A stretch of DNA of 44,883 nucleotides from Burkholderiaceae bacterium (GTDB taxonomy: Bacteria > Pseudomonadota > Gammaproteobacteria > Burkholderiales > Burkholderiaceae_D). A program made the translations under genes and the position numbers. Positions 960 through 23,175 of the stretch are shown piece after piece (the first letter of the stretch is position 1; each line of letters starts with the position of its first letter). The notes under the pieces were generated by a model. It was given only the letters and a program-made list of their open reading frames with translations. It did not search any database and was not told the origin of the DNA. Location: the NCBI GenBank assembly GCA_023653025.1, contig JAMNXS010000016.1, positions 1-44,883 of the forward strand. The letters are read 5' to 3'.

Positions 960-1907
960 GTGACCGATCTTCTTTCCGCCCGCATCGAAGCATTCCGCGC
1001 GCAGCGGCGCGTGCAGGCGACTTCGCTCATCATGACCGTTTTCGGCGATGCCGTGCTGCCGCGCGGCGGCCGCATCTGGCTCGGCAGTCTGATCCGTCTG
1101 CTCGGGCCGCTGGACCTGAGCGAGCGGCTGGTGCGCACCTCGGTGTTCCGGCTGGTTCGGGAGGGCTGGCTGTCGACCGAAACCGTCGGCCGTCGCTCGA
1201 ACTACGCGCTGGCGCCGGCCGGTCGCCGGCGCTTCGAGGAGGCCGCGCAGCAGATCTATTCGTCGCGCGCGCCGCTGTGGGATCGTCGCTGGCGAATGAT
1301 CGTCGTCGTCGGCGAACTCGACGCCCGGCCGAGGGAAGCGCTGCGGCGCTCGCTGTTCTGGCAGGGTTTCGGCGTGGTCGGCGGCAACTGCTTCATTCAT
1401 CCGGGCGCCGATCTCGGCGAGGCGCTCGACACGCTGCGCGCCGACGGGCTCGGCGCCTTGCTGCCCGGCTTGATGCCGCTGGTGGCGGCGGATTTTCAGT
1501 CGGCGATGGCTGCTTCCGATGCCGACCTCGTGCGGCGCGCCTGGGACCTGGACGCGCTGGCGCGCGGCTATGCGGACTTCATCGCCGCCTACGAGCCCAT
1601 ACTCGCGCAACTGCGCGCCCGCCCGCTGCCCGACGACGCCGACGAGCGCGCCTTCCTGCTGCGCATCCTGCTCGTCCACGATTACCGGCGCTCGCTGCTG
1701 CGCGACCCGGAACTGCCCGAGGTGCTGCTGCCGGCCGACTGGCCGGGCCACCGCGCGCGGTTGTTGTGCAAGGAACTCTACAAGCGGCTCGAACCGGCGT
1801 CGAACCGCCATCTCGACCTCTGCCTGCGGCTGGCCGACGACAGCCTGCCGCTGCCGGACGCCGCGCTGCACGAGCGCTTCCCCGATTACGACGCGCTCGC
1901 TACCTGA
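960..1907 (+). CDS. paaX: Phenylacetic acid degradation operon repressor PaaX
   Basis: This 315-residue protein matches the PaaX family in length (about 305-316) and layout: an N-terminal winged helix (roughly residues 20-95, including RTSVFRLVREGWLSTE and the wing GRRSNYALAPAGRRRFEEA), then the PaaX central and C-terminal domains with LLRILLVHDYRRSLLRDPELP near the end. PaaX represses paa operons and is released by phenylacetyl-CoA. The start is the GTG at 960, because ATG codons further upstream in frame would run into yaeQ antisense sequence and add unrelated residues. It converges on paaE with only 19 nt between. Candidate operators with TGATAC-N27-GTATCG geometry lie at 9179-9217 and 9327-9365 in front of the operon it should control; none was seen in front of paaX itself. 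Confidence 0.93.
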   Translation: MTDLLSARIEAFRAQRRVQATSLIMTVFGDAVLPRGGRIWLGSLIRLLGPLDLSERLVRTSVFRLVREGWLSTETVGRRSNYALAPAGRRRFEEAAQQIYSSRAPLWDRRWRMIVVVGELDARPREALRRSLFWQGFGVVGGNCFIHPGADLGEALDTLRADGLGALLPGLMPLVAADFQSAMAASDADLVRRAWDLDALARGYADFIAAYEPILAQLRARPLPDDADERAFLLRILLVHDYRRSLLRDPELPEVLLPADWPGHRARLLCKELYKRLEPASNRHLDLCLRLADDSLPLPDAALHERFPDYDALAT

Positions 1908-1926: not shown

Positions 1927-3015
1927 TCAGCGCTCGTCGAAGCTCAGGCGCACCGAGCGCGACAGCGCGCGCGCCTGGCATGACAGCACGAAGCCGCGCG
2001 CCATCTCGTCGGCTTCCAGCGTGAAGTTCTTGTCCATCACCGTCTCGCCGTCGAGCACCTTCGCGCGGCAGGTGCAGCAGACGCCGCCCTTGCACGAGAA
2101 CGGCAGGTCGAGCCCCGCCTCGAGCGCCGCGTCGAGCAGGCGCTCGTCGCGGCCGATGGACAATTCATGCTCCTTGCCGTCGAGGACGATGGTCAGCGCG
2201 ACATCGCGCGCGCTGTCCGCGGGCCTGGCCTGCTCGGCGACCGGTCGCGGCGCGACCGCGGCGCCCGTGGTGAAGCGTTCGGTGCGCACGCGGTCGGCAG
2301 GCACGCCGGCGGCGAGCAGCGCCGTCTCGGTCGCCTCGATCATCGCCTCCGGCCCGCAAATGAAGACTTCGTCCATGCTCGCCACCGGCAGCAGGCTTGC
2401 GGTCAGCGCCTGCACCTTGCCGGCATCGATGCGTCCCTGCAGCAGCGGCACTTCCTGCGCCTGCCGCGACAGCACATGAATCAGCGTCAGCCGGTCGGGA
2501 TAGCGGTCCTTCAGGTCCTGCAGCGCCTCGCTGAACATCACGCTGGCCATCTTGCGATTGCCATAGACCAGCGTGAAGCGGCTGTCCGGCTGCTCCTCGA
2601 GCGTGCTGGCAGCGATCGACAGGATGGGCGTGATGCCGGAGCCGGCCGCAAAGCCCACGCGATGGATGGCGCGCGGCCGCCTGACGATGAAACGTCCGTC
2701 CGGCGGCATCGCCTGCAGCAGGTCGCCGGCCTTCAGTTCGCGCGCGGCCCAGTTCGAGAACAGGCCGCCGTCGACCGGACGGATGCCGATCTCCAGTTCG
2801 CCGGCGTCGCGCAGTCGCGAGCGCGGGCTGCTGATCGAATAGCTGCGGCGCACGTCGGCGCCATCGATGTTCGCGCGCACGGTCAGGAACTGGCCCGGCT
2901 CGAAATCGAAGGCGGCGCGCTGATCAGCCGGTACGCGCAAGGCGATGGCCACCGCGCCGGCGGCCTCCGGGCTCACGCGCTGTATGCGCAGGTCATGGAA
3001 GCGCGGGGCGGACAT
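1927..3015 (-). CDS. paaE: Phenylacetyl-CoA 1,2-epoxidase reductase subunit PaaE
   Basis: This 362-residue protein passes electrons from NADPH via FAD and a 2Fe-2S centre to the PaaABC epoxidase. Domains in order: FAD-binding barrel with RRSYSISS (56-63), nucleotide-binding domain with GFAAGSGITP (121-130) and CGPE (220-223), and a C-terminal plant-type ferredoxin with Cys308-x4-Cys313-x2-Cys316 and Cys346 as cluster ligands. Length and ferredoxin-at-the-end order are those of PaaE. It is the last gene of the minus-strand paa operon, 24 nt after paaD, and converges on paaX. Confidence 0.95.
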   Translation of the reverse strand: MSAPRFHDLRIQRVSPEAAGAVAIALRVPADQRAAFDFEPGQFLTVRANIDGADVRRSYSISSPRSRLRDAGELEIGIRPVDGGLFSNWAARELKAGDLLQAMPPDGRFIVRRPRAIHRVGFAAGSGITPILSIAASTLEEQPDSRFTLVYGNRKMASVMFSEALQDLKDRYPDRLTLIHVLSRQAQEVPLLQGRIDAGKVQALTASLLPVASMDEVFICGPEAMIEATETALLAAGVPADRVRTERFTTGAAVAPRPVAEQARPADSARDVALTIVLDGKEHELSIGRDERLLDAALEAGLDLPFSCKGGVCCTCRAKVLDGETVMDKNFTLEADEMARGFVLSCQARALSRSVRLSFDER

Positions 3016-3039
3016 GGTGGGTGACTCCGTACAAGGTGT

Positions 3040-3552
3040 TCAGTAGGGCTTGAAGTAATCGAAGGGCTCGCGGCAGTCCAGGCACTTGTAGAGTGCCTTG
3101 CAGGCAGTGGAGCCGAAGCGCGCGCTCTCGACCGTCTGCGTCGAGCCGCATTGCGGGCAGGGGACGATGTCGGGTCGCGGCGCACGCGCGTGAAACGTGA
3201 TCGTGGCCAGCTCGGCGGCTGCGCGCTGCGGCGGCGCGATGCCGTAGCGGCGCAGCTTGTCGCGCCCGTCAGCGCTCATCCAGTCGGTGGTCCAGGCCGG
3301 CGACAGCCGCGTGACGATGCGCGCGGCGATGCCCTCGGCCTCGAGCCTGGCGCGGATGTCGTCCTCGATCTGCGCAATCGCCGGGCAGCCGCTGTAGGTC
3401 GGCGTGATCACCACCTCGAGCTCGCCGTCGTCGGCCGCACGCACGTCACGCAGGATGCCGAGGTCGCGCAGTGTCAGCACCGGGATCTCGGGGTCGTGCA
3501 GCGCGTCCAGCGCCTGCCATGCGTGATCGATCCGGGCATCCATCGCGGTCAT
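3040..3552 (-). CDS. paaD: PaaD (PaaJ-type) maturation protein of the phenylacetyl-CoA epoxidase
   Basis: This 170-residue protein has an N-terminal MIP18/DUF59 domain (about residues 8-85, with SGCPA around Cys56) and a C-terminal zinc-finger-like module with CPQC (132-135) and CLDC (157-160). That arrangement is specific to PaaD, which is required for assembly of an active epoxidase, probably through its iron centre. It is 4 nt downstream of the paaC stop. A second in-frame ATG three codons on is an equally possible start. Confidence 0.93.
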   Translation of the reverse strand: MTAMDARIDHAWQALDALHDPEIPVLTLRDLGILRDVRAADDGELEVVITPTYSGCPAIAQIEDDIRARLEAEGIAARIVTRLSPAWTTDWMSADGRDKLRRYGIAPPQRAAAELATITFHARAPRPDIVPCPQCGSTQTVESARFGSTACKALYKCLDCREPFDYFKPY

Positions 3553-3556
3553 CCTG

Positions 3557-4339
3557 TCACCAGCGGGCGTCCGGCATCGCCCGCGCCAGGCTCTGCATCT
3601 CGGCCAGCAAATAGCCCAGATGCTCGGAGTGGATGCCCTGTTTGCCCTCGGGCACGTAGCCGCGCGCTTCGGGCCGGGTCAGCGTCGCCTCGGCCAGCGC
3701 GGCTTCGACGATCCGCTCCCATGCCGGCCGCAGCGCGGCGACGTCGATGGCGATGCCGGCCGCGCGGGCGGCGGTCTCCGCAGGGCTGTCGGCCCAGAAC
3801 TCGCGCGTGTACGGAAACAGGTGGTCGAGCGCGGCCTGTACGCGGCGATGCGACTCGTCGGTGCCGTCGCCGAGCTTCACCAGCCAGTCGCGGCTGTGCT
3901 GCAAGTGGTAGCGCGCTTCCTTCACCGATTTTTCGGCGATCGCCGCCAGATCGGCATCGGCCGACGCCTTGAGCGCCTCCCACGCCAGCGCCATCAGTGC
4001 GCTGTAGAGGAAGTTGCGGACGATGGTGGCACCGAAATCCAGCCCGTCCTGCGCGTAGCCGACCAGCGGCGCGTGATGCGGCAGTTCGAGCAGCGTGTAG
4101 TTGCGGAATTCGTGCGCATGGCGGAAATAGGCGAGGCTGTCCTCGGTCGCGCCGCCGCCGCCGCGCCTTGCGGCCAACTGGTAGAGCAGGCGCGCTTGCC
4201 CGATCAGGTCGAGGGTGATGTTCGCCATCGCGATATCCTCCTCGAGGATGGGCCCGTGGCCGGTCCACTCGGCGTTGCGCTGGCCGAGCACGAGCGCGTT
4301 GTCGGCCAGGTGCAGCAGGTAGTCGAAGCTCGCGTTCAT
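3557..4339 (-). CDS. paaC: Phenylacetyl-CoA 1,2-epoxidase structural subunit PaaC
   Basis: This 260-residue ferritin-like helical protein is the structural partner of PaaA in the epoxidase. It begins [20 protein letters not shown] and contains the family stretches RNAEWTGHGPILEEDIAMAN and ARYHLQHSRDWLVKLGDGT. The ATG at 4337-4339 overlaps the paaB TGA by one base (TGATG), so translation is probably coupled; longer in-frame starts would run back through paaB and are rejected. Length is near the usual 250-260 residues. Confidence 0.95.
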   Translation of the reverse strand: MNASFDYLLHLADNALVLGQRNAEWTGHGPILEEDIAMANITLDLIGQARLLYQLAARRGGGGATEDSLAYFRHAHEFRNYTLLELPHHAPLVGYAQDGLDFGATIVRNFLYSALMALAWEALKASADADLAAIAEKSVKEARYHLQHSRDWLVKLGDGTDESHRRVQAALDHLFPYTREFWADSPAETAARAAGIAIDVAALRPAWERIVEAALAEATLTRPEARGYVPEGKQGIHSEHLGYLLAEMQSLARAMPDARW

Positions 4340-4632
4340 CACATGTGGCCGACGTCGTCGGGGATCTGGTAGAAAGTCGGATGGCGGTAGATCTTGTCGG
4401 CGGCCGGATCGAACAGCTCGGCCTTGTCGTCTGGCCGACTGGCAACGATGTCGGCCGAGCGCACGACCCAGATGCTGACGCCCTCCTGCCGCCGCGTGTA
4501 GACGTCGCGCGCCATCTGCATGGCCTGCGCGGCGTCGGTCGCATGCAGGCTGCCGCAGTGCTTGTGCTCGAGGCCCTGCTTCGAGCGCACGAACACCTCC
4601 CACAGCGGCCACTCTTTCAGTTCGCTGCTCAT
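4339..4632 (-). CDS. paaB: Phenylacetyl-CoA 1,2-epoxidase subunit PaaB
   Basis: This is a short 97-residue protein beginning [20 protein letters not shown], a signature of PaaB, followed by [20 protein letters not shown] and a conserved FYQIP near the end. PaaB bridges PaaAC heterodimers in the epoxidase complex. Its ATG at 4630-4632 overlaps the paaA stop by 4 nt (ATGA) and its own stop touches the paaC start, so the three epoxidase subunits are read as tightly coupled genes. Most of it is hidden inside a longer open frame that shadows paaA. Confidence 0.94.
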
Positions 4633-5660
4633 GCGGCCTCCTTCGCGTTGCGCGCGGCCTGCTTGCGCGCATGCGCGAGCGCGGCCTCGCGCACCCAGGC
4701 GCCGTCCGCATGCGCCTTCACGCGCGTGGCCAGCCGTTCCTTGTTGCAGGGGCCGTTGCCGTTGACGGTCTGCCAGAATTCGTCCCAGTCGATCGCGCCG
4801 TAGTCGTAGTGGCCACGCTCCTCGTTCCACTTCAGGTCGGGGTCGGGCAGGGTAACGCCCAGCACTTTCGCCTGCGGCACGGTGGCATCGACGAACTTCT
4901 GCCGCAGGTCGTCGTTGGTGAAGCGCTTGATGCCCCAGCGCATGCCGAGCGCGCTGTTCGGGCTGTCGGCATCCGGCGGCCCGAACATCGCGAGACACTT
5001 CCACCACCAGCGGTTGACGGCGTCCTGCACCATCGCGCGCTGCGCATCAGTGCCCTGCATCATCACCAGCAGCGACTCGTAGCCCTGGCGCTGGTGGAAG
5101 GATTCCTCCTTGCAGACGCGCACCATCGCGCGCGCATACGGTCCGTACGAGCAGCGGCAGAGCGGGATCTGGTTCATGATCGCCGCGCCGTCGACCAGCC
5201 AGCCGATCACCCCGACATCGGCCCAGCTGAGGGTCGGGTAGTTGAAGATCGAGCTGTATTTCGCGCGGCCGGTGTGCAGGTCGTCCAGCATTTGCTCGCG
5301 CGACGTGCCGAGCGTCTCGGCGGCCGAGTACAGGTAAAGGCCGTGGCCGCCTTCGTCCTGCACCTTGGCGATCAGGATCGCCTTGCGCTTGAGGCTGGGT
5401 GCGCGCGAGATCCAGTTCCCCTCGGGCAGCATGCCGACGATCTCGCTGTGCGCATGCTGGCTGATCTGGCGCACCAGCGTCTTGCGGTAGGCGTCCGGCA
5501 TCCAGTCCTGCGGCTCGATGCGGCCATCGTTCGCAATCGCCGCGTCGAAGGTGGCGAGCTTGCGCGCCTCTTCCTCGCCGGTGAACGGGATCGGTCGAGT
5601 GGCCGCGGCCGTGCCGAGCGCCGGTGCGGCATCGCCGACGGAAAATGATTGGGTGTACAT
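4629..5660 (-). CDS. paaA: Phenylacetyl-CoA 1,2-epoxidase catalytic subunit PaaA
   Basis: This 343-residue protein is the oxygen-activating subunit that epoxidises the ring of phenylacetyl-CoA. It shows the di-iron-type carboxylate/histidine motifs QHAHSE (68-73), QDEGGH (101-106; E103-x2-H106) and KEESFH (184-189; E186-x2-H189), plus the conserved run [18 protein letters not shown] towards the C-terminus. The start ATG at 5658-5660 is preceded by a strong Shine-Dalgarno (GGAGGAAGC on the minus strand). It follows paaK by 45 nt, with no terminator seen, so it is probably co-transcribed from the paaH side. Confidence 0.96.
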
Positions 5661-5705
5661 GCTTCCTCCTGTCAGGTGGGCATCATGAAAATGGGTTCCT
5701 GCTCG

Positions 5706-7028
5706 TCAGGCCGGGCGCGGACGTTCGTCGATCACGCGCTTGGCCTTGCCGACCAGCGTGCGCGGTATCGCGTCGGCGTCCAGCACGGTGACCTGCGCCG
5801 ACACGCCGATGCGGGTCTTGATGCGTTGCGCGAGTTCGCCGGCGACGCCAGCGCGACCGGCCGCACCCATCCTTCCGGCTTCGCGCTGCAGCTCGCAGCG
5901 CACTTCGAGCGCATCCAGATGCGCGTCGCGCGACACCACCAGCTGGTAGGTGCCCGCCAGGCGCGGGTCGCCGAGGATCAATTCCTCGATCTGGGTCGGG
6001 AAGACGTTCACGCCGCGAATGATCAGCATGTCGTCCGAGCGGCCGGTGATCTTGCCCATGCGCCGGAACGCGCGCGCCGTCGGCGGCAGCAAGCGGGTCA
6101 GGTCGCGCGTGCGGAAGCGGATCACGGGAAAGGCTTCCTTGGTCAGCGAGGTAAAGACGAGCTCGCCTTCCTGCCCGTCCGCCAGCACCGCGCCGGTGAC
6201 GGGATCGATGATCTCCGGATAGAAGTGGTCTTCCCAGATCACCGGGCCGTCCTTGGTCTCGATGCATTCGTTCGCCACGCCCGGGCCGATCACTTCGGTC
6301 AGGCCGTAGATGTCGATCGCGTCGATGCCGAGCCGCCGCTCGAGCTCGGCACGCATGCCTTCGCCCCAGGGCTCGGCGCCGAAGATGCCGACCGAGAGCG
6401 AGATGTCGTCCGGGCCGACGCCCAGCCGCGCGAACTCTTCGGCGATCACCAGCGCGTAGGACGGCGTGACCATGATCGCATCGGGTCGGAAATCAAGGAT
6501 CTGCTGGACCTGCTTTTCGGTTTGGCCGCCCGACATCGGCACCACGCAGCAGCCGGCGCGCTCGATCCCGTAGTGCGCGCCGAGGCCGCCGGTGAACATG
6601 CCGTAGCCATAGGCGTTGTGCACCATGTCGCCGGGGCGGACGCCCGCCGCGCGCAGCGAGCGCGCGACCAGTTGCGCCCAGTGGTCGAGATCGTTCGCCG
6701 TGTAGCCGGCCACGACCGGCTTGCCGGTGGTGCCCGATGATGCATGCAGCCGCGCCAGCCGCTCGCGCGGCACCGCGAACAGGCCGAACGGATAGTGTTC
6801 GCGCAGGTCGTCCTTGGTCATGAACGGAAAGCGGGCGAGGTCGGACAGCTGCCGCAGGTCGTCTGGATGCACCTGCTGCGCCTCGCACTTGCGGCGGAAC
6901 GCGGGCACGTTGTCCCAGCTGTGGCGCAGGCTCCAGCACAAACGCTGCAGCTGCAGCGCGGCGATCTCGTCGCGGCTGGCGCGCTCGATCGGCTCCAATT
7001 CTTCCGGGCGGGCAGTCTTGACGGGCAT
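5706..7028 (-). CDS. paaK: Phenylacetate-CoA ligase PaaK
   Basis: This 440-residue member of the ANL adenylate-forming family makes phenylacetyl-CoA from phenylacetate, ATP and CoA, the first step of the pathway. Motifs seen are the ATP loop SSGTTGKP (97-104), GYGMFTGGLGAHYG, IYGLTEVIGPGVANEC and the hinge region FRTRDLTRLLPP. Length agrees with PaaK (about 430-440). It lies 69 nt after paaI and 45 nt before paaA. The substrate assignment follows from family similarity and the surrounding epoxidase genes. Confidence 0.95.
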   Translation of the reverse strand: MPVKTARPEELEPIERASRDEIAALQLQRLCWSLRHSWDNVPAFRRKCEAQQVHPDDLRQLSDLARFPFMTKDDLREHYPFGLFAVPRERLARLHASSGTTGKPVVAGYTANDLDHWAQLVARSLRAAGVRPGDMVHNAYGYGMFTGGLGAHYGIERAGCCVVPMSGGQTEKQVQQILDFRPDAIMVTPSYALVIAEEFARLGVGPDDISLSVGIFGAEPWGEGMRAELERRLGIDAIDIYGLTEVIGPGVANECIETKDGPVIWEDHFYPEIIDPVTGAVLADGQEGELVFTSLTKEAFPVIRFRTRDLTRLLPPTARAFRRMGKITGRSDDMLIIRGVNVFPTQIEELILGDPRLAGTYQLVVSRDAHLDALEVRCELQREAGRMGAAGRAGVAGELAQRIKTRIGVSAQVTVLDADAIPRTLVGKAKRVIDERPRPA

Positions 7029-7097
7029 CCGATGGTCTCCTTGCTGTTCTGGGTCGGGGCCTCTGCGGGCTCCTCGATTAAGGCTGCCGGCGACGCT

Positions 7098-7559
7098 TCA
7101 GCTGCCGTCGCTGCCGGGTATCACCGGGCCGCCGATCCGGTGGCTCTTGCCGCGAAACAGCGCGATGGTTTTGCCGCCATCGCCGGTCACGGCGACGTCG
7201 TAGACGCCGGTGCGTCCGGTTGCCGTGCGCTCGACGGCTTCCGCCTGCAAGCGCTCGCCTGCGCGCGCCGGCGCGATGAAATCGATCTGGCAGGCCGAGG
7301 CGACGGTCACCTGGTTACCACTGTTGCAGGCATAGGCGAAGGCCGTGTCGGCCAGCGTGAAGATCATGCCGCCGTGGCAGATGCCGTGGCCGTTGGCCAT
7401 GTCCGGCCGCACCATCATCTGCAGCGTGGCGCGCCCCGGGCCGACCTGCGCGACCTGCATGCCGAGCGCATGCGCCGCATGATCGCGTTCCCACAGGGCG
7501 GCGGCCGCAGCTTCGGCCAGCGCCTGCGCGTCGCCGGCGGGCTGGCGGGTATCAGTCAT
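7098..7559 (-). CDS. paaI: Hydroxyphenylacetyl-CoA thioesterase PaaI
   Basis: This is a 153-residue hotdog-fold thioesterase. The helix-tail region NGHGICHGG (56-64) followed by LADTAFAYACNSG is the PaaI signature, with Asp71 at the position of the catalytic aspartate as I recall it for the family. PaaI is thought to remove dead-end thioesters and free CoA when the pathway stalls. The ATG at 7557-7559 was chosen because it matches homologue starts (MTDTRQ...); it overlaps the 3' end of paaH by 8 nt. Confidence 0.93.
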   Translation of the reverse strand: MTDTRQPAGDAQALAEAAAAALWERDHAAHALGMQVAQVGPGRATLQMMVRPDMANGHGICHGGMIFTLADTAFAYACNSGNQVTVASACQIDFIAPARAGERLQAEAVERTATGRTGVYDVAVTGDGGKTIALFRGKSHRIGGPVIPGSDGS

Positions 7560-9129
7560 GCAGGCTCCCTTTGGCGAAAAATGCCTGTTGTATCCGCGGC
7601 GAGACGCGATAGCGGTCTTCGCCATAGGCGGCGCCGAGGTGGACGAGCACCTGACGCACTGCATCCACGCCAACCCGCTCGGCCCATGCGAGCGGACCGA
7701 GCGGATAGTTGACGCCCAGTTTCATCGCCGCATCCGCACCGTCGGCCGAGCACACGCCCTGGTGGACGGCGTCGGCCGCTTCGTTGGCGAGCATGGCGAC
7801 GGTACGCATCACGGCCAGTCCCGGTACGTCGTTCAGCAGCGATACCTGCAAGCCGGCCGCCTGCAGCAGCGCGATGGCCGCGTGCAGGGCCGGTTCCGGG
7901 CACTGGCGCGCTGCGGCGATGCCGATGCGGCTGGCGCTGGCGTAGTCGAGAGCGAGGTCGATCAGCACCACGCCCGGCGTCGAGGTCTCGGCGGCGCGCT
8001 GCGTGGCGCTGCGGCCATCGGTGACGAAGAGCGTTGCGCCGCCGACGGTGGCGATGCGGCCGTTGGTGTGGCCGTTGGTGCGGCCGTGGTTGTGGCCGCT
8101 GTTGTGTCCATCAATGCCGGCATCGCGTTCGTGGCGCACGCCGGCCGCGTCGAGGCGGGCCGACAGCGCCTGCGCCGCGGCCGAATCGCCGTGCACACAG
8201 GGCACCGCGGACAGCGCCCGTGCCGCTTCGGAGGACGGCTGGGCCCGCGCCGCGCCCTCGCGATAGTCATGGAAGCCGCGCCCGCTCTTGCGGCCGAGGA
8301 AGCCGGCATCCACCAGTTCCTGCTGGATCAGCGAGGGCAGGAAGCGCTGGTCGTGGAAGAAGGCGGTCCAGACCGAGCGCGTGACCGCGAAATTGACGTC
8401 GTGGCCGATCATGTCCATCAGCTCGAACGGGCCCATGCGGAAGCCGCCGGCCTCGCGCATCAGCGCGTCGAGGGTGGCGACATCGGCCGCGCCCTCCTGC
8501 AGCAGGCGCAGCGCCTCGGCGTAGTAGGGGCGGGCAACGCGGTTGACGATAAAGCCGGGAGTCGACTTCGCATGCACCGGCGACTTGCCCCAGGCCGCGG
8601 CGGTGGCGAACAGGGCGTCGGCGACCTCGCGTGCGGTCGCGAGGCCGCTGACCACTTCGACCAGCGCCATCAGCGGCGCCGGGTTGAAGAAATGCAGTCC
8701 GGCCAGTCGCTCCGGGCGCTGCAGCGCCGCGCCGATGGCCGTGATCGAGATCGACGACGTATTGGTTGCGAGAATGCAGTCGCTGGCCACTAGCGACTCG
8801 AGTTCGCGGAACAGCTGCTGTTTGGCGTCGAGGCTCTCGACGATGGCCTCCACCACCAGCGCCGCGTCGGCCAGTCCGGCCAGCGCATCGACGGCCGACA
8901 GGCGCGCGCCGGCCGCCGCGGCCGCCTCGGTGCTCATACGTCCCTTGTCGACCAGCTTCGCAAATTGGACTCGGATGCCGTCCACGGCCTTTTCCGCCGC
9001 GCCGGCCCGCGCATCGAGCAGCTTCACCGGATGACCTGCGGCCGCCGCTACCTGAGCGATGCCCGAGCCCATGGCGCCGGCGCCGATGACGGCGACGACT
9101 CGTTCGACAGACAGGGCAGGCGTACTCAT
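7552..9129 (-). CDS. paaH: 3-hydroxyacyl-CoA dehydrogenase PaaH with a low-complexity insert
   Basis: This 525-residue enzyme oxidises 3-hydroxyadipyl-CoA late in the phenylacetate pathway. Order: NAD-binding Rossmann domain with GAGAMGSG (16-23), the TNTSS and HFFNPAPLM motifs, a first C-terminal 3HCDH domain (PGFIVNRVARPYYAEA), and a second C-terminal domain (DVPGLAVMRTVAMLANEAAD) typical of the long PaaH type. Between them, residues about 340-358 form an unusual Asn/Gly/His/Thr repeat encoded by four 12-bp tandem units. The ATG at 9127-9129 directly precedes the conserved start of the Rossmann domain; further upstream sequence contains the promoter and operator. It is the first gene of the operon; a promoter fits at 9178-9206. 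Confidence 0.94.
   Translation of the reverse strand: MSTPALSVERVVAVIGAGAMGSGIAQVAAAAGHPVKLLDARAGAAEKAVDGIRVQFAKLVDKGRMSTEAAAAAGARLSAVDALAGLADAALVVEAIVESLDAKQQLFRELESLVASDCILATNTSSISITAIGAALQRPERLAGLHFFNPAPLMALVEVVSGLATAREVADALFATAAAWGKSPVHAKSTPGFIVNRVARPYYAEALRLLQEGAADVATLDALMREAGGFRMGPFELMDMIGHDVNFAVTRSVWTAFFHDQRFLPSLIQQELVDAGFLGRKSGRGFHDYREGAARAQPSSEAARALSAVPCVHGDSAAAQALSARLDAAGVRHERDAGIDGHNSGHNHGRTNGHTNGRIATVGGATLFVTDGRSATQRAAETSTPGVVLIDLALDYASASRIGIAAARQCPEPALHAAIALLQAAGLQVSLLNDVPGLAVMRTVAMLANEAADAVHQGVCSADGADAAMKLGVNYPLGPLAWAERVGVDAVRQVLVHLGAAYGEDRYRVSPRIQQAFFAKGSLHD
8058..8105. repeat. Four in-frame 12-bp tandem repeats inside paaH
   Basis: On the plus strand the units are GGCCGTTGGTGT, GGCCGTTGGTGC, GGCCGTGGTTGT and GGCCGCTGTTGT, exactly contiguous. 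On the coding (minus) strand each unit gives four residues: HNSG, HNHG, RTNG, HTNG. Because the period is a multiple of three, gain or loss of units changes linker length without a frameshift. Confidence 0.92.
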
Positions 9130-9177: not shown

Positions 9178-9206
9178 ACGATACTTTAACAACGATTTTT
9201 TATCAA
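9178..9206 (-). promoter_or_regulatory. Predicted sigma70 promoter of the paaH operon
   Basis: Reading the minus strand, a -35 element TTGATA (9201-9206) is followed after exactly 17 nt by TATCGT (9178-9183) as the -10. The -10 overlaps the paaH-proximal half-site of the split palindrome 9179-9217 and the -35 lies inside its spacer, so a protein bound to both half-sites would cover the promoter. Start of transcription would be about 40 nt upstream of the paaH ATG. Confidence 0.55.
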
Positions 9207-9217
9207 TACTCGTATCA
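9179..9217. promoter_or_regulatory. Candidate PaaX operator 1 (paaH side)
   Basis: Half-sites CGATAC (9179-9184) and GTATCA (9212-9217) are inverted copies with a 27-nt spacer. In paaH orientation the site reads TGATAC-N27-GTATCG. The E. coli PaaX operator is described, as I recall, as TGATTC-N27-GAATCA, i.e. the same spacing and one base different per half-site. The second copy at 9327-9365 has identical geometry. The link to PaaX is inference. Confidence 0.65.
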
Positions 9218-9326
9218 CAAAAGCGGCGGATATCACGTCGGCGGCAACGCCGGGTTGCGCCAGCGGTGAACTCGCATATTCGCGCGACGCGGCAGTGGCG
9301 GCAGCGCACGGTTCGCTGCAGTGCAA

Positions 9327-9365
9327 TGATACTTTCGGATTTGCGTGATTCGGCTTGTGGTATCG
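9327..9365. promoter_or_regulatory. Candidate PaaX operator 2 (transporter side)
   Basis: TGATAC (9327-9332) and GTATCG (9360-9365) enclose a 27-nt spacer, the same split palindrome as at 9179-9217 but facing the MFS gene. In both copies the GTATCGT end is nearest to the gene and contains a -10-like TATCGT. I could not find a convincing -35 at standard spacing for this copy. The spacers of the two copies share almost no sequence, which argues that only the half-sites are under selection. Confidence 0.62.
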
Positions 9366-9459: not shown

Positions 9460-10812
9460 ATGACCGTGGGGACCACTGCTGCCGGACACGCCAGCTATGA
9501 CGTGATGCAGGCGATCGATGAAGGAAAGTTCACGCCGCTGCAGCGGATGATTTACGTGCTGGCCGCACTGGCGCTGGTGCTCGACGGCTTCGACGGCCAG
9601 ATGATCGGCTACGCGATCCCCGCGATCATGAAAGAGTGGGGCGTGACCCGCGCCGCGTTCTCGGTAGCGGTGGCCAGCGGCTTGGTCGGCATGGCCGTGG
9701 GCAGCGTAGTGGCGGGCCTGATCGCCGACCGCGTCGGCCGCAAGCCGGTGCTGATCGGGAGCATTTTCCTGTTCGGCAGCGCGACCTTCCTGATCGGCTA
9801 CGCGACGGACGTGACCTCGATCGCCATGATCCGCTTCTTTGCCGGCCTCGGCATCGGCGCGGCGCTTCCGGCGGCGACCACGCTGACGGCCGAATTCACG
9901 CCGACGCGCTTTCGCACCATTGCCGTCACCACGGCCATCGTCTGCTACCCGCTCGGCGGCATGCTGGCGGGCCTGGTCGCCGGCCAGGTGCTGCCGACGC
10001 AAGGCTGGCGCGTGTTCTTCTTTATCGGCGGCGCGATGCCCATCGCTTATGCCGTCGTGCTGATCTTCCTGCTGCGCGAGTCGCCGAAATACCTGGCCCG
10101 CCAGAGCACGCGCTGGGAGGAGTTGCGCGGGCTGATGGCCCGGATGGCGCATGAAGTGGCGCATGTGAAGGAATTTACCGACGGCGTCATCACCTCGGTC
10201 AGGCGCGGCAGCATAGGCGAGGTGTTCCGCGACGGGCGCGCGTCGGATTCGATCTGGCTGTGGATCTGCTTCTTCATGACGCTGCTGTCGATCTACAGCG
10301 CGTTCAGCTGGCTGCCGACCATGCTAACGACCGAGGGCCTGTCGCCTGCACTGGCCGGCATGGGCCTGACGGCCTACAACTTCGGCGGCGTGATCGGCGC
10401 CATCATCTGCGCGCTGGCGGTCACGCGCTACGGCTCGCGCAAGCCGATGATCTTCTACGCCGCGATGTCGGCGGCCAGCGCGCTGCTGCTGAATGTGGTC
10501 AGCGTGACCTCCGACACCCAGACCTTCCTGCTCGGCCTCGGACTGCACGGCCTGTTCATCACGGCGGTGCAGTGCTCGCTGTATGCACTGTGCGCGCACC
10601 TGTATCCGACAGTGATCCGCGTCACCGGCACGGCATCGGCGCTGGCCTTCGGCCGGCTGGGCGCGATCCTCAGCGCCTTTGCCGGCGCGGCGATGATCAC
10701 GGCCGGCGGCGCCAGCGCCTACCTGAACCTGCTCGGCGGGTCGATGGTGATTACGGTGCTGGGTCTGGTGATGATCCGCAATCACATCAAGCCGGCGGTC
10801 AAGGCGGAGTGA
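9460..10812 (+). CDS. MFS aromatic acid:H+ symporter (AAHS family), probable aromatic acid uptake
   Basis: This 450-residue inner-membrane transporter has about twelve hydrophobic segments. It carries the AAHS hallmark DGFDGQMIGYAIP in the first helix and the MFS loop motif GLIADRVGRKPVLIG between helices 2 and 3, as in PcaK/BenK/MhpT. A strong Shine-Dalgarno (GGAGGAAAC) precedes the ATG. It is divergent from paaH and shares the 27-nt-spaced palindromes with it, so phenylacetate or a related aromatic acid is the likely substrate; that is inference from context. It is not the sodium-solute-type PaaL found in some other paa clusters. Confidence 0.85.
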   Translation: MTVGTTAAGHASYDVMQAIDEGKFTPLQRMIYVLAALALVLDGFDGQMIGYAIPAIMKEWGVTRAAFSVAVASGLVGMAVGSVVAGLIADRVGRKPVLIGSIFLFGSATFLIGYATDVTSIAMIRFFAGLGIGAALPAATTLTAEFTPTRFRTIAVTTAIVCYPLGGMLAGLVAGQVLPTQGWRVFFFIGGAMPIAYAVVLIFLLRESPKYLARQSTRWEELRGLMARMAHEVAHVKEFTDGVITSVRRGSIGEVFRDGRASDSIWLWICFFMTLLSIYSAFSWLPTMLTTEGLSPALAGMGLTAYNFGGVIGAIICALAVTRYGSRKPMIFYAAMSAASALLLNVVSVTSDTQTFLLGLGLHGLFITAVQCSLYALCAHLYPTVIRVTGTASALAFGRLGAILSAFAGAAMITAGGASAYLNLLGGSMVITVLGLVMIRNHIKPAVKAE

Positions 10813-11866: not shown

Positions 11867-11895
11867 TTGGCCTGGCAAAATTACTATGATATATT
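11867..11895 (+). promoter_or_regulatory. Predicted promoter of the porin-modA unit
   Basis: TTGGCC (11867-11872), a 17-nt spacer and TATATT (11890-11895) form a sigma70-like promoter with about 75 nt of leader before the porin ATG. The local sequence is much more AT-rich than its surroundings. Confidence 0.45.
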
Positions 11896-11898
11896 TTG
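11876..11898. promoter_or_regulatory. Candidate ModE-type operator overlapping the porin promoter
   Basis: CAAAAT (11876-11881) and ATTTTG (11893-11898) are inverted copies flanking an AT-rich centre with TATGATAT. ModE operators are known to be AT-rich TATA-containing palindromes, and this one overlaps the predicted -10 between modE and modA. The match to the E. coli consensus is not close, so the assignment rests mainly on position. Confidence 0.35.
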
Positions 11899-11974
11899 AC
11901 TCGACATCGCCGGAAACTGCTGTCGTTTCGGGGTGTGATGACTATTCAATCAGGGACGACTTGAGGCAAAGACG

Positions 11975-13381
11975 ATGAGAGGCGAGCATCTGACACGCGT
12001 TGTGCCGCCGATGGCGGTCGTGCTGGCGACGCTGGCGTTCGGTGGCCGGGTATATGCCGGGGAGGACGTCAAGGTCCTGCTGGAGATCCTGAAGGAGAAG
12101 GGGATCATCACGCAGGAGGAGTTCGACCAGAAGCTCAAGGTGGCCCGGGAGAAGGAGGAAATCCGCGCCTTCAACGAAGCGCAGGACATCCGCCGCGCCA
12201 ACCGCGAGATCGACAAGCGCGCCGACGAGGAGCGCAAGTTCAAGACGCAGATCTACGGACAGGTGTCGGCTGGCTACTACCAGGCATCGAACATGACGTC
12301 GCAGAACCTCGACGCCTCCGGCATGAGCGACCAGCCGAAGGCGAACAACCGGTTGGGCTTTCGCGCGTCGCGCGAACTCGATGCCGACAACACCGCGGTG
12401 CTGACGCTCGAATCCAATTTCTCGGCACGCACCGGCGCCATCGGTCGTGACTCGGCCGGCTATGGCTCGTCCAATATCAACGGCGTGGGCGGCGCGCTGT
12501 TCGACCGCGAAGCAAGCGTGCGATGGATCTCGAAAACCTATGGCACTTTTGTCCTGGGCCGCGGCCCGAACCTGCAAAATGATTTGTCGAGCGCCTTCGA
12601 TTCGCGCAGCAATTGGAACTTCGGCGGCCTGAAGCCCATCGGCCGCTATGCCGGCTTTCACGGCGCCTCCGGCATCAACCGCGCTGACAGGCTGTTCCGC
12701 TACATTTCGCCGGCGTGGAACGGTTTCAACCTCGATACGGGCGTCTCGGTCGGAGGCGTTGCAGGCAACGATGAAAAAGGGAACAACTACTACATCGGCG
12801 GTCGCTACAAGAACGGCAATTTCGAGATGGGCTACAACCATGCCGCCGTCAAGCTGGGATCGGCATCGGTTCCGGTGCAGGAAGTGAACAACCGGGTGGA
12901 TTTTGTCGCGGCGAAGCTCACGATGGAGAAGCTGACGCTGAATGCCGGCTATGTTGTGACCCGCAATCCGAACCCGATCGCGAACAGCGGGTCAACCGTC
13001 CTGAACAATACATTCGACCCGAACAAAACGGCCGGCCGGGTCGATGCCAACACCTGGTTCGCGGGAGCGGTCTATCGCCTCAGCCCCGAATTCAGCTGGA
13101 ATGCGGGCTACTACGCCGTTGACGACCGCACGGCACAGACCAGCGACAACCGGAACAATGACGTTCGGATGTTCGCCACAGGCCTGACCTATTCGCCGTA
13201 CCGGGAGTGGGATTTTTTCATCGACTATGCGATGGCCCGGCGACAAGCCGGGGCGACCGGCGCTTTCACGATTTACGACAAATGGGCTCCGGACACGTCG
13301 GTGGGCGGCGTAAACGGCGGCTACGCCGAAAGCAGGAAAAACCAGTCCGGCGTCTCCGTCGGCGCCCAGTACAAATTCTGA
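11975..13381 (+). CDS. Outer-membrane porin with N-terminal coiled-coil segment, beside modA
   Basis: This 468-residue protein has a signal peptide (VVPPMAVVLATLAFGGRVYA, cleavage near residue 28), then a charged helical segment (about residues 33-90: EILKEKGIITQEEFDQKLKV, then Glu/Lys/Arg-rich) predicted to form a coiled coil, then a beta-rich 16-strand-type porin barrel with the usual terminal phenylalanine (GVSVGAQYKF). The pairing with modA 12 nt downstream, and with modE divergent, suggests it admits molybdate or another oxyanion; porins are not usually part of mod operons. General porins of betaproteobacteria usually lack this N-terminal helical region, which may anchor to peptidoglycan. 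Confidence 0.85.
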   Translation: MRGEHLTRVVPPMAVVLATLAFGGRVYAGEDVKVLLEILKEKGIITQEEFDQKLKVAREKEEIRAFNEAQDIRRANREIDKRADEERKFKTQIYGQVSAGYYQASNMTSQNLDASGMSDQPKANNRLGFRASRELDADNTAVLTLESNFSARTGAIGRDSAGYGSSNINGVGGALFDREASVRWISKTYGTFVLGRGPNLQNDLSSAFDSRSNWNFGGLKPIGRYAGFHGASGINRADRLFRYISPAWNGFNLDTGVSVGGVAGNDEKGNNYYIGGRYKNGNFEMGYNHAAVKLGSASVPVQEVNNRVDFVAAKLTMEKLTLNAGYVVTRNPNPIANSGSTVLNNTFDPNKTAGRVDANTWFAGAVYRLSPEFSWNAGYYAVDDRTAQTSDNRNNDVRMFATGLTYSPYREWDFFIDYAMARRQAGATGAFTIYDKWAPDTSVGGVNGGYAESRKNQSGVSVGAQYKF

Positions 13382-18486: not shown

Positions 18487-19302
18487 ATGACACGCCTGCT
18501 GCTCTCCCTGCTGATTGCTGCGAGCCTCACGCCGGCGGCCCGGGCCGAGGATCCGAAGAAGGATGCCGCTGCGTCGGCAGCACGGCCGCCGTCACCGGGC
18601 GCGCATCATCAGCCGCGCGACATCCTCTGGGCTTACGAGGGCGAGAAAGGTCCGGCTAAATGGTCGGAGATCGAGCCCGGTTTTCGCGCCTGCAACAACG
18701 GCAAGCGCCAGTCGCCGGTCAACATCGAAACGCGTGACGCCGAAAAGGCGGGCCTCAAGCCCATACAGTTCAGCTACCAGCCCGGCAACGCGGAGGTCGT
18801 CAATACCGGCCACACGATTCAAGTGAACTTGCCCGATTCGGGCAGTGCGCGCTTCGACAACCTCGAGCACAAGCTCGTGCAACTCCACTTTCATACGCCG
18901 AGCGAAGAAAAAATCGACGGCATGGCGCAGCACATGGTGGCGCATCTCGTGCATCGCGCCGGCGACACGCGCTTTGCGGTCGTCGCCGTGCTATTCAAGC
19001 TGGGCAAGGAGAACAAGGCGCTCAAGGCAGTATTCGAGAACCTGCCGCAGCGCCAGGGATTGCGTACCGATATCAAGGATTTCAATCCGGCGGACTTGCT
19101 GCCGGCCGACCCGACGTATTTTGCCTATACCGGCTCGCTCACCACGCCGCCTTGCACCGAGGAAGTGAAGTGGCATGTGATGAAGACGCCGATGGAAATC
19201 TCGTATCGCCAGCTGGCGGCATTCAAGGCGCTGTACAAGATGAATGCGCGCCCGGTGCAGCCGCTCAACGGGCGGCGGGTGCAGATGTTCGCGCAGCCCT
19301 GA
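18487..19302 (+). CDS. Periplasmic alpha-class carbonic anhydrase
   Basis: This 271-residue protein has a signal peptide (cleavage near residue 20, ARA-E) and an alpha-carbonic anhydrase domain: NNGKRQSPVNI (70-80), zinc histidines H134 and H136 in QLHFHTPSE and H153 in AHLVH, and SLTTPPCTEEVKWHV towards the end. It hydrates CO2 in the periplasm. Residue 151 is Val where the animal enzymes have the zinc-ligand-tuning Glu117; similar MVAHLVH sequences occur in some bacteria, so this may be normal for the subfamily. A very good Shine-Dalgarno (GGAGGAAAAACA) precedes the ATG. Confidence 0.95.
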   Translation: MTRLLLSLLIAASLTPAARAEDPKKDAAASAARPPSPGAHHQPRDILWAYEGEKGPAKWSEIEPGFRACNNGKRQSPVNIETRDAEKAGLKPIQFSYQPGNAEVVNTGHTIQVNLPDSGSARFDNLEHKLVQLHFHTPSEEKIDGMAQHMVAHLVHRAGDTRFAVVAVLFKLGKENKALKAVFENLPQRQGLRTDIKDFNPADLLPADPTYFAYTGSLTTPPCTEEVKWHVMKTPMEISYRQLAAFKALYKMNARPVQPLNGRRVQMFAQP

Positions 19303-23144: not shown

Positions 23145-23175
23145 CCGGTATGCTATTTCTGCAACATCATACCGG
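23145..23175. repeat. 8-bp inverted repeat between motB and ggt
   Basis: CCGGTATG (23145-23152) and CATACCGG (23168-23175) are exact inverted copies with a 15-nt spacer in the 166-nt divergent region. It could be a regulator site for either gene or a leader hairpin for ggt. I saw no second copy in the window. Confidence 0.5.

Follow-up and report, generated by a model that had tools for sequence, protein, structure and literature searches.

The closest described counterpart of the system considered here is that of Escherichia coli, in which PaaX operators of the form TGATTC(N27)GAATCA lie at the promoters Pz and Pa and repression by PaaX is relieved by phenylacetyl-CoA; the same review, in its available part, also mentions that a sequence similar to the PaaX box was found for Pseudomonas Y2 (PMC9493321). 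The paa genes of Burkholderia cenocepacia are regulated by PaaR (PMC2770484), and in Pseudomonas putida CA-3 the gene for the phenylacetate permease, paaL, is sigma-54 dependent (PMC3224230). PaaR operators of betaproteobacteria have been described in the literature, in which our search found no paper on PaaX operators in these bacteria and nothing relevant on PaaX in combination with TGATAC. A term count over the accessible text of PMC6449761, which deals with betaproteobacterial aromatic regulons, returned no word starting with PaaX, the terms "operator" and "binding site" are both absent from the accessible text of PMC13186573 (by term count and in the text itself), and the accessible part of PMC10364317 holds nothing relevant to PaaX boxes. 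Since the review reports the similar Pseudomonas Y2 sequence, a TGATAC-type box may already be in print in the primary PaaX-box papers.

The window, i.e., the whole stretch of 44,883 nucleotides analysed here, carries the following features around a pair of predicted PaaX boxes:

1008 to 1907, plus strand: paaX, convergent with paaE (TIGR02277, 273 bits; start codon position approximate)
1927 to 7493, minus strand: paaI, paaK, paaA, paaB, paaC, paaD and paaE, the remainder of the apparent operon (NCBIfam; tblastn)
7552 to 9129, minus strand: paaH, first gene of the apparent operon paaH-I-K-A-B-C-D-E (TIGR02279, 682 bits, cut-off 669)
9178 to 9206, minus strand: sigma-70-like promoter within box 1, TTGATA-17-TATCGT (promoter scan)
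9179 to 9217, minus strand: box 1, predicted PaaX box, TGATAC-N27-GTATCG reading towards paaH (exact match)
9327 to 9365, plus strand: box 2, predicted PaaX box, TGATAC-N27-GTATCG reading towards the MFS gene (exact match)
9460 to 10812, plus strand: MFS transporter (TIGR00895, 309.6 bits, under the cut-off of 418.6; PF07690)

The TIGR02277 match clears its cut-off of 264.55 and is the only one in the assembly; thus the paaX gene which the first-pass annotation had placed in the window is present, and in a single copy. The protein belongs to the repressor family, carrying the Pfam PaaX N, M and C domains, and shares 34% identity with E. coli PaaX across the aligned stretch. Among the remaining genes of the apparent operon, paaK, paaA and paaD score above their NCBIfam cut-offs and paaE falls just under its own (413 against 421), while tblastn with the E. 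coli proteins recovers all seven. The transporter comes nearest to the aromatic acid/H+ symport type; as it stays below the cut-off of that model the substrate that it imports can only be inferred, and is probably phenylacetate or a similar aromatic acid. In this genome there is no PaaN_2 above cut-off (best 66 bits), and the best PaaG match (TIGR02280) reaches 190 bits against a cut-off of 345, from which an absence of PaaG cannot be deduced, as none of the 14 control genomes passes either. The best PaaZ-like gene (G000 contig C66, L195) scores 534 against 563 bits over positions 1-501 of 664; it has no PaaX box near it and encodes an aldehyde dehydrogenase which we take to be possibly a BoxD-type enzyme. 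The window also holds, at 18487-19302, a gene for an alpha-type carbonic anhydrase (PF00194).

The two boxes are placed in the 330 bp between the divergent paaH and transporter genes, box 1 at 49 bp from the paaH start codon, most likely the one at 9129, and box 2 at 94 bp from the transporter start at 9460. They had been described in the first-pass annotation as two split palindromes with 27-nt spacers, shared outer bases and differing spacers, and both coordinates and sequence bear this out: the base following GTATCG is T in both boxes, each read in the direction of its own gene, and 5 of the 27 spacer positions are shared. Both conform to the split palindrome TGATNC-N26-28-GNATCA of PaaX operators, with A in place of T at position 5 of either half and position 1 changed in the proximal one, and the half-site centres within each box are 33 bp, or about three turns, apart. 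The further assertion that the boxes keep the E. coli spacing and depart from the E. coli operator by one base per half is correct for the spacing and for the distal half; the proximal half departs by two bases. Taking the position of the boxes together with the comparative evidence below, boxes 1 and 2 are very probably operators of the repressor PaaX.

The exact form TGATAC-N27-GTATCG occurs twice in the window and not at all in 100 shuffles, and YGATACN27GTATCR has no match across 400 simulated windows. Scanning of the whole assembly (2,893,135 bases in 126 contigs) with YGATAC-N27-GTATCR returned boxes 1 and 2 as the only exact matches; a scan of this genome for the motif, as the first-pass annotation had proposed, thus gives the two boxes in the window and no further exact N27 box, so that exact boxes would be lacking at any paa genes that might lie beyond the window. 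One-mismatch N27 matches occur in the assembly at 10 more places, as against 1 for the reversed control, and the G+C content of these places is 0.54-0.74 as opposed to 0.28 and 0.46 for the real sites. Allowing gaps of N24-30 adds one exact match, with N29, which is GC-rich and on a different contig. An open-frame test on the one-mismatch places was set aside for want of discrimination, both real sites also being inside open frames.

A matrix trained on 18 sites, none of which comes from the genus of the window, ranks the site at 9179 first (35.4 bits) and that at 9327 second (17.8 bits) at N27 in the window, the top N27 score over 300 simulated windows being 15.8 bits; the ranking of the two boxes is the same with N26-28. 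When all of N20-34 are allowed, box 2 drops to sixth, behind box 1, three matches overlapping box 1 and one at 23160. This drop, together with a margin of only 2 bits over the null maximum, indicates that box 2 combines an exact core with weak flanks. Set to the base composition of the window, the matrix did not rank the known E. coli sites top when run on the E. coli locus. A third N27 candidate in the window, 11887-11925 (TGATAT..CTGTCG, 16.1 bits), was not accepted, being barely above the null maximum; it sits 49 bp ahead of a gene for a 468-aa protein (11975-13381) which has no NCBIfam, Pfam or PADLOC match and whose product looks, from its sequence, like an outer-membrane porin.

The likeness of the two boxes might in principle be a product of chance, an explanation whose probability is next to negligible. 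A search of the window with two mismatches does return 5 matches against 2.7 expected, a pattern that is uninformative at this stringency, but the contrast between two exact matches and none in shuffles, the cross-genus matrix ranking and the recurrence of a similar box, together with its promoter, at paaH of the same-genus genome G013 all contradict it.

The distribution of the box across genomes provides a further line of evidence. With presence called at a match of E 1e-30, PaaX is found in 146 of the 294 sampled genomes of the family; the repressor is common in this betaproteobacterial family. Spacings from 5 to 55 were tabulated, with at most one mismatch, over 60 loci from 59 PaaX-bearing genomes (938,348 bases). 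The TGATAC..GTATCA pair gave 33 occurrences at N27 and 9 at N28, with no other spacing exceeding 7 and the reversed control never exceeding 5; 20 of the 60 loci come from the genus or order of the window, such that the counts are not independent events; the TGATTC pair showed no comparable peak, with 3 at N27. Boxes occupy the gap between paaX and paaA in many genera, and 26 sites yield a half-site profile of approximately wwaTGATACrnnww. Raw genome-wide counts of TGATACN26-28GTATCA were dropped as a measure: 136 of the 294 genomes match, and in genus g5 a GC-rich sequence that is common to many genomes, lies distant from paaX and is taken to be coding yields matches. As such matches away from paaX inflate the raw counts, counting was restricted to the region upstream of paaA.

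For this purpose the roughly 500 bp preceding paaA were scored with a matrix built from 11 sites, all from the genus of the window, the PaaX-bearing loci tested coming from other genera; a locus was counted as positive when its best score exceeded those of all 100 composition shuffles. A box was recovered at 38 of 39 PaaX-bearing loci; for genomes that have paaA and lack a PaaX match the count was 0 of 17 loci, these 17 all being from genus g50 (17 of 20 such genomes, the other three lacking listed coordinates). The sole miss, L115, was scored on a run of N, and an exact N28 box is visible there; additionally, a PaaX-bearing g50 genome (G280, locus L128) has an exact box. The expectation that the motif should recur at paa promoters of PaaX-bearing relatives is thus borne out within the family, and by their sequence boxes 1 and 2 belong to the same family as the boxes at those promoters. 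These results also bear on the proposal that the boxes are operators of another regulator, for example a TetR-type PaaR as in B. cenocepacia, where PaaR governs the paa genes (PMC2770484, accessible part). We consider this very unlikely: the published 15-bp PaaR repeat ACCGACCGGTCGGTT, 14 bases of which were searched, is not found at the paa promoters, its best matches anywhere in the window having 3 mismatches, a chance level, with none of the five in the intergenic region, and the box tracks the presence of PaaX, with the reservation that the 17 controls represent one genus.

The exact spelling of the box is variable. Compared with TGATAC/GTATCA, 8 of the 38 paaA boxes are exact and 8, 17 and 5 have one, two and three mismatches, respectively. 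At core position 5, 60 of the 76 half-sites carry A, with an A/T pairing in 16 of the 38 boxes and T/T in none; the altered half-site base that had been presented as an oddity of the window is therefore the usual one in this family. An asymmetric TGATTC-N27-GTATCG, read towards paaA, is common to several genera (L108, L113, L173, L179, L180, L186 and others) and mixes E. coli half-sites with those bearing A at position 5. Of 21 loci from other genera of the family, 12 have, ahead of a paa gene, a box with no more than one mismatch to TGATAC/GTATCA; outside the family the corresponding figures are 8 of 19 for a class-wide sample and 0 of 1 for another family of the order. Co-occurrence of the box with PaaX is hence observed inside the family and is patchy beyond it. 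In the paaX-carrying plasmid region of Pseudomonas sp. VLB120 no box is seen at up to one mismatch, and the candidates from five intergenic stretches tested there did not outscore shuffles. In the E. coli K-12 cluster, scanning picks up two TGATTC-type sites, each with one mismatch, at the paaZ/paaA divergence, a Klebsiella pneumoniae record has TGATTC-type sites at paaZ, at paaA and before paaX, two of the three being exact, and an unannotated Halomonas record has mixed boxes such as TGATAC..GAATCA. Both arginines and the leucine of the recognition helix VRTSVFRL are invariant across 63 aligned rows. Inspection by eye for covariation of this helix with core position 5 revealed no simple link: E. 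coli has FVRTALFR and the window LVRTSVFR, and relatives with RTAVYR also bear TGATAC boxes.

With regard to promoters, the claim that the paaH-side copy encloses TTGATA-17-TATCGT stands, the scan having recovered one such element in box 1 against 0.1 expected; box 1 thereby lies at a paa promoter and overlaps it, and the G013 box upstream of paaH has -35 and -10 elements and a geometry identical to it. The repeats could alternatively be conserved promoter elements, i.e., outward-facing -10 boxes of the form TATCRT, and not operators at all. A -10-like hexamer starting at box base 35, and overlapping the proximal half-site, is indeed present in 92% of 36 N27 box/gene orientations (catabolic or transporter genes), a figure that stems largely from the half-site itself and in which box 1 was counted towards the MFS gene and box 2 both ways, so that neither box of the window is matched unambiguously to its own gene. 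This alternative appears highly improbable, as it leaves the conservation of the distal half at a fixed distance of 27 or 28 nt unexplained, the pair is kept at none of the 17 paa promoters of PaaX-free genomes, and the promoter scan finds no consensus promoter at the transporter copy, box 2.

On the reading of the boxes as PaaX operators, the simplest account of their action, by analogy with E. coli, would be steric repression relieved by phenylacetyl-CoA. A PaaX dimer would contact both half-sites of each box, and the bound protein would cover the promoter and thereby keep RNA polymerase off. Phenylacetyl-CoA, the product of PaaK, would then release PaaX, upon which the transporter and the paaHIKABCDE operon would be induced together, coupling import to degradation. 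Scanning of 240 bp found no box close in front of the paaX of the window, which probably lacks autoregulation through a box of its own; this arrangement is unlike the paaX|paaA layout of other genomes, in which one box lies between both genes.

The PaaX of the window is 64-71% identical to those of G013, G015, G020, G001, G005 and G008, 59-60% to those of Castellaniella (L071) and G031, 50% to that of G080, and below 45% to those of all remaining loci in the comparison, the second PaaX type of its own genus among them. Genus g1 has two clearly distinct PaaX types, each with a different paa operon layout, which suggests exchange of whole paa clusters. Strong box pairs, with each box within one mismatch, are present in three same-genus relatives. 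In G013 (L100) both boxes, at 8075 and 8248, precede paaH and follow a c-di-GMP phosphodiesterase-like gene that lies on this same strand. In G015 and G020 the distance between the boxes is 171-172 bp, and they separate paaN (or a gene of paaN size) from an MFS gene, which in G015 is incomplete in the stretch examined and HpaX-like below cut-off and in G020 is identified by Pfam only. The suggestion that the transporter of the window belongs to the same regulon is accordingly favoured by its own exact box and by the similar paaN/MFS pairs of these two genomes, which are closely alike and, their boxes being alike, may be close kin. Among the remaining relatives, a pair whose cores are weaker, at 2 and 3 mismatches, precedes an aldehyde dehydrogenase gene in G080; G001, G005, G031 and G095 have one box within one mismatch; G137 has one box before paaX, with two mismatches; and in G008 paaX is the only paa gene on the contig examined. 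In L112 (7254-10596) and L071 (30-3291) paaX is third in a run, after a gene for 342-370 aa of no known type and a second gene, a BenC-like reductase in L112; a box, with two mismatches in L071, lies ahead of the run in both.

These pairs are relevant to an extension of the PaaX-operator reading, compatible with it, in which PaaX bound to both boxes forms a DNA loop that locks both promoters. Strong pairs recur at distances of 148 bp (window) and 171-173 bp (L100, L102, L106), with a weaker one at 173 bp (L119), but 148 and 172 bp differ in helical phase, G001 and G005, which share this lineage, each have one box, no divergent gene is seen at the pair in L100, and a single box per promoter is enough; such a loop is therefore unlikely. 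Rather doubtful, too, is a broader scenario, in which the window, G013, G015, G020 and, more weakly, G080 would represent a separate PaaX lineage with paired operators 148-173 bp apart, in which the box at paaX had been lost. On this scenario, dimers on both boxes would work jointly, perhaps through looping, as a single switch for the uptake and breakdown of aromatic acids, and the enterobacterial TGATTC code would derive from the code with A at position 5.

For the operator reading itself, the system is ordinary in kind: a known type of switch with a spelling slightly unlike that of E. coli. What it provides is a usable PaaX-box consensus for a large betaproteobacterial family, an inverted repeat of approximately wwaYGATACrnnww with N26-28 in which T at position 5 is tolerated in one half, from which PaaX regulons, transporters included, become predictable from sequence. 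Further, position 5, which is A in some boxes, A paired with T in others and T/T in E. coli and Klebsiella, offers a modest and testable example of an operator and its repressor diverging in step.

In comparison with E. coli, the shared features are a PaaX-family regulator adjoining the paa cluster, a split palindrome, the 27-nt spacing and the place at paa promoters. The window departs from E. coli in its half-sites, where A replaces T at core position 5 on either side and C replaces T at position 1 on the proximal side; no box is found near paaX, and one of the boxes precedes a transporter gene. The PaaR system of B. cenocepacia resembles what is predicted here in repression at paa promoters and in phenylacetyl-CoA as inducer, but that regulator is of another protein family (TetR type) and has a different and shorter motif, one that is missing from the window. 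Finally, PaaL of P. putida CA-3 is likewise an uptake gene tied to the phenylacetate pathway; it is sigma-54 dependent, whereas the MFS gene of the window has a PaaX box.
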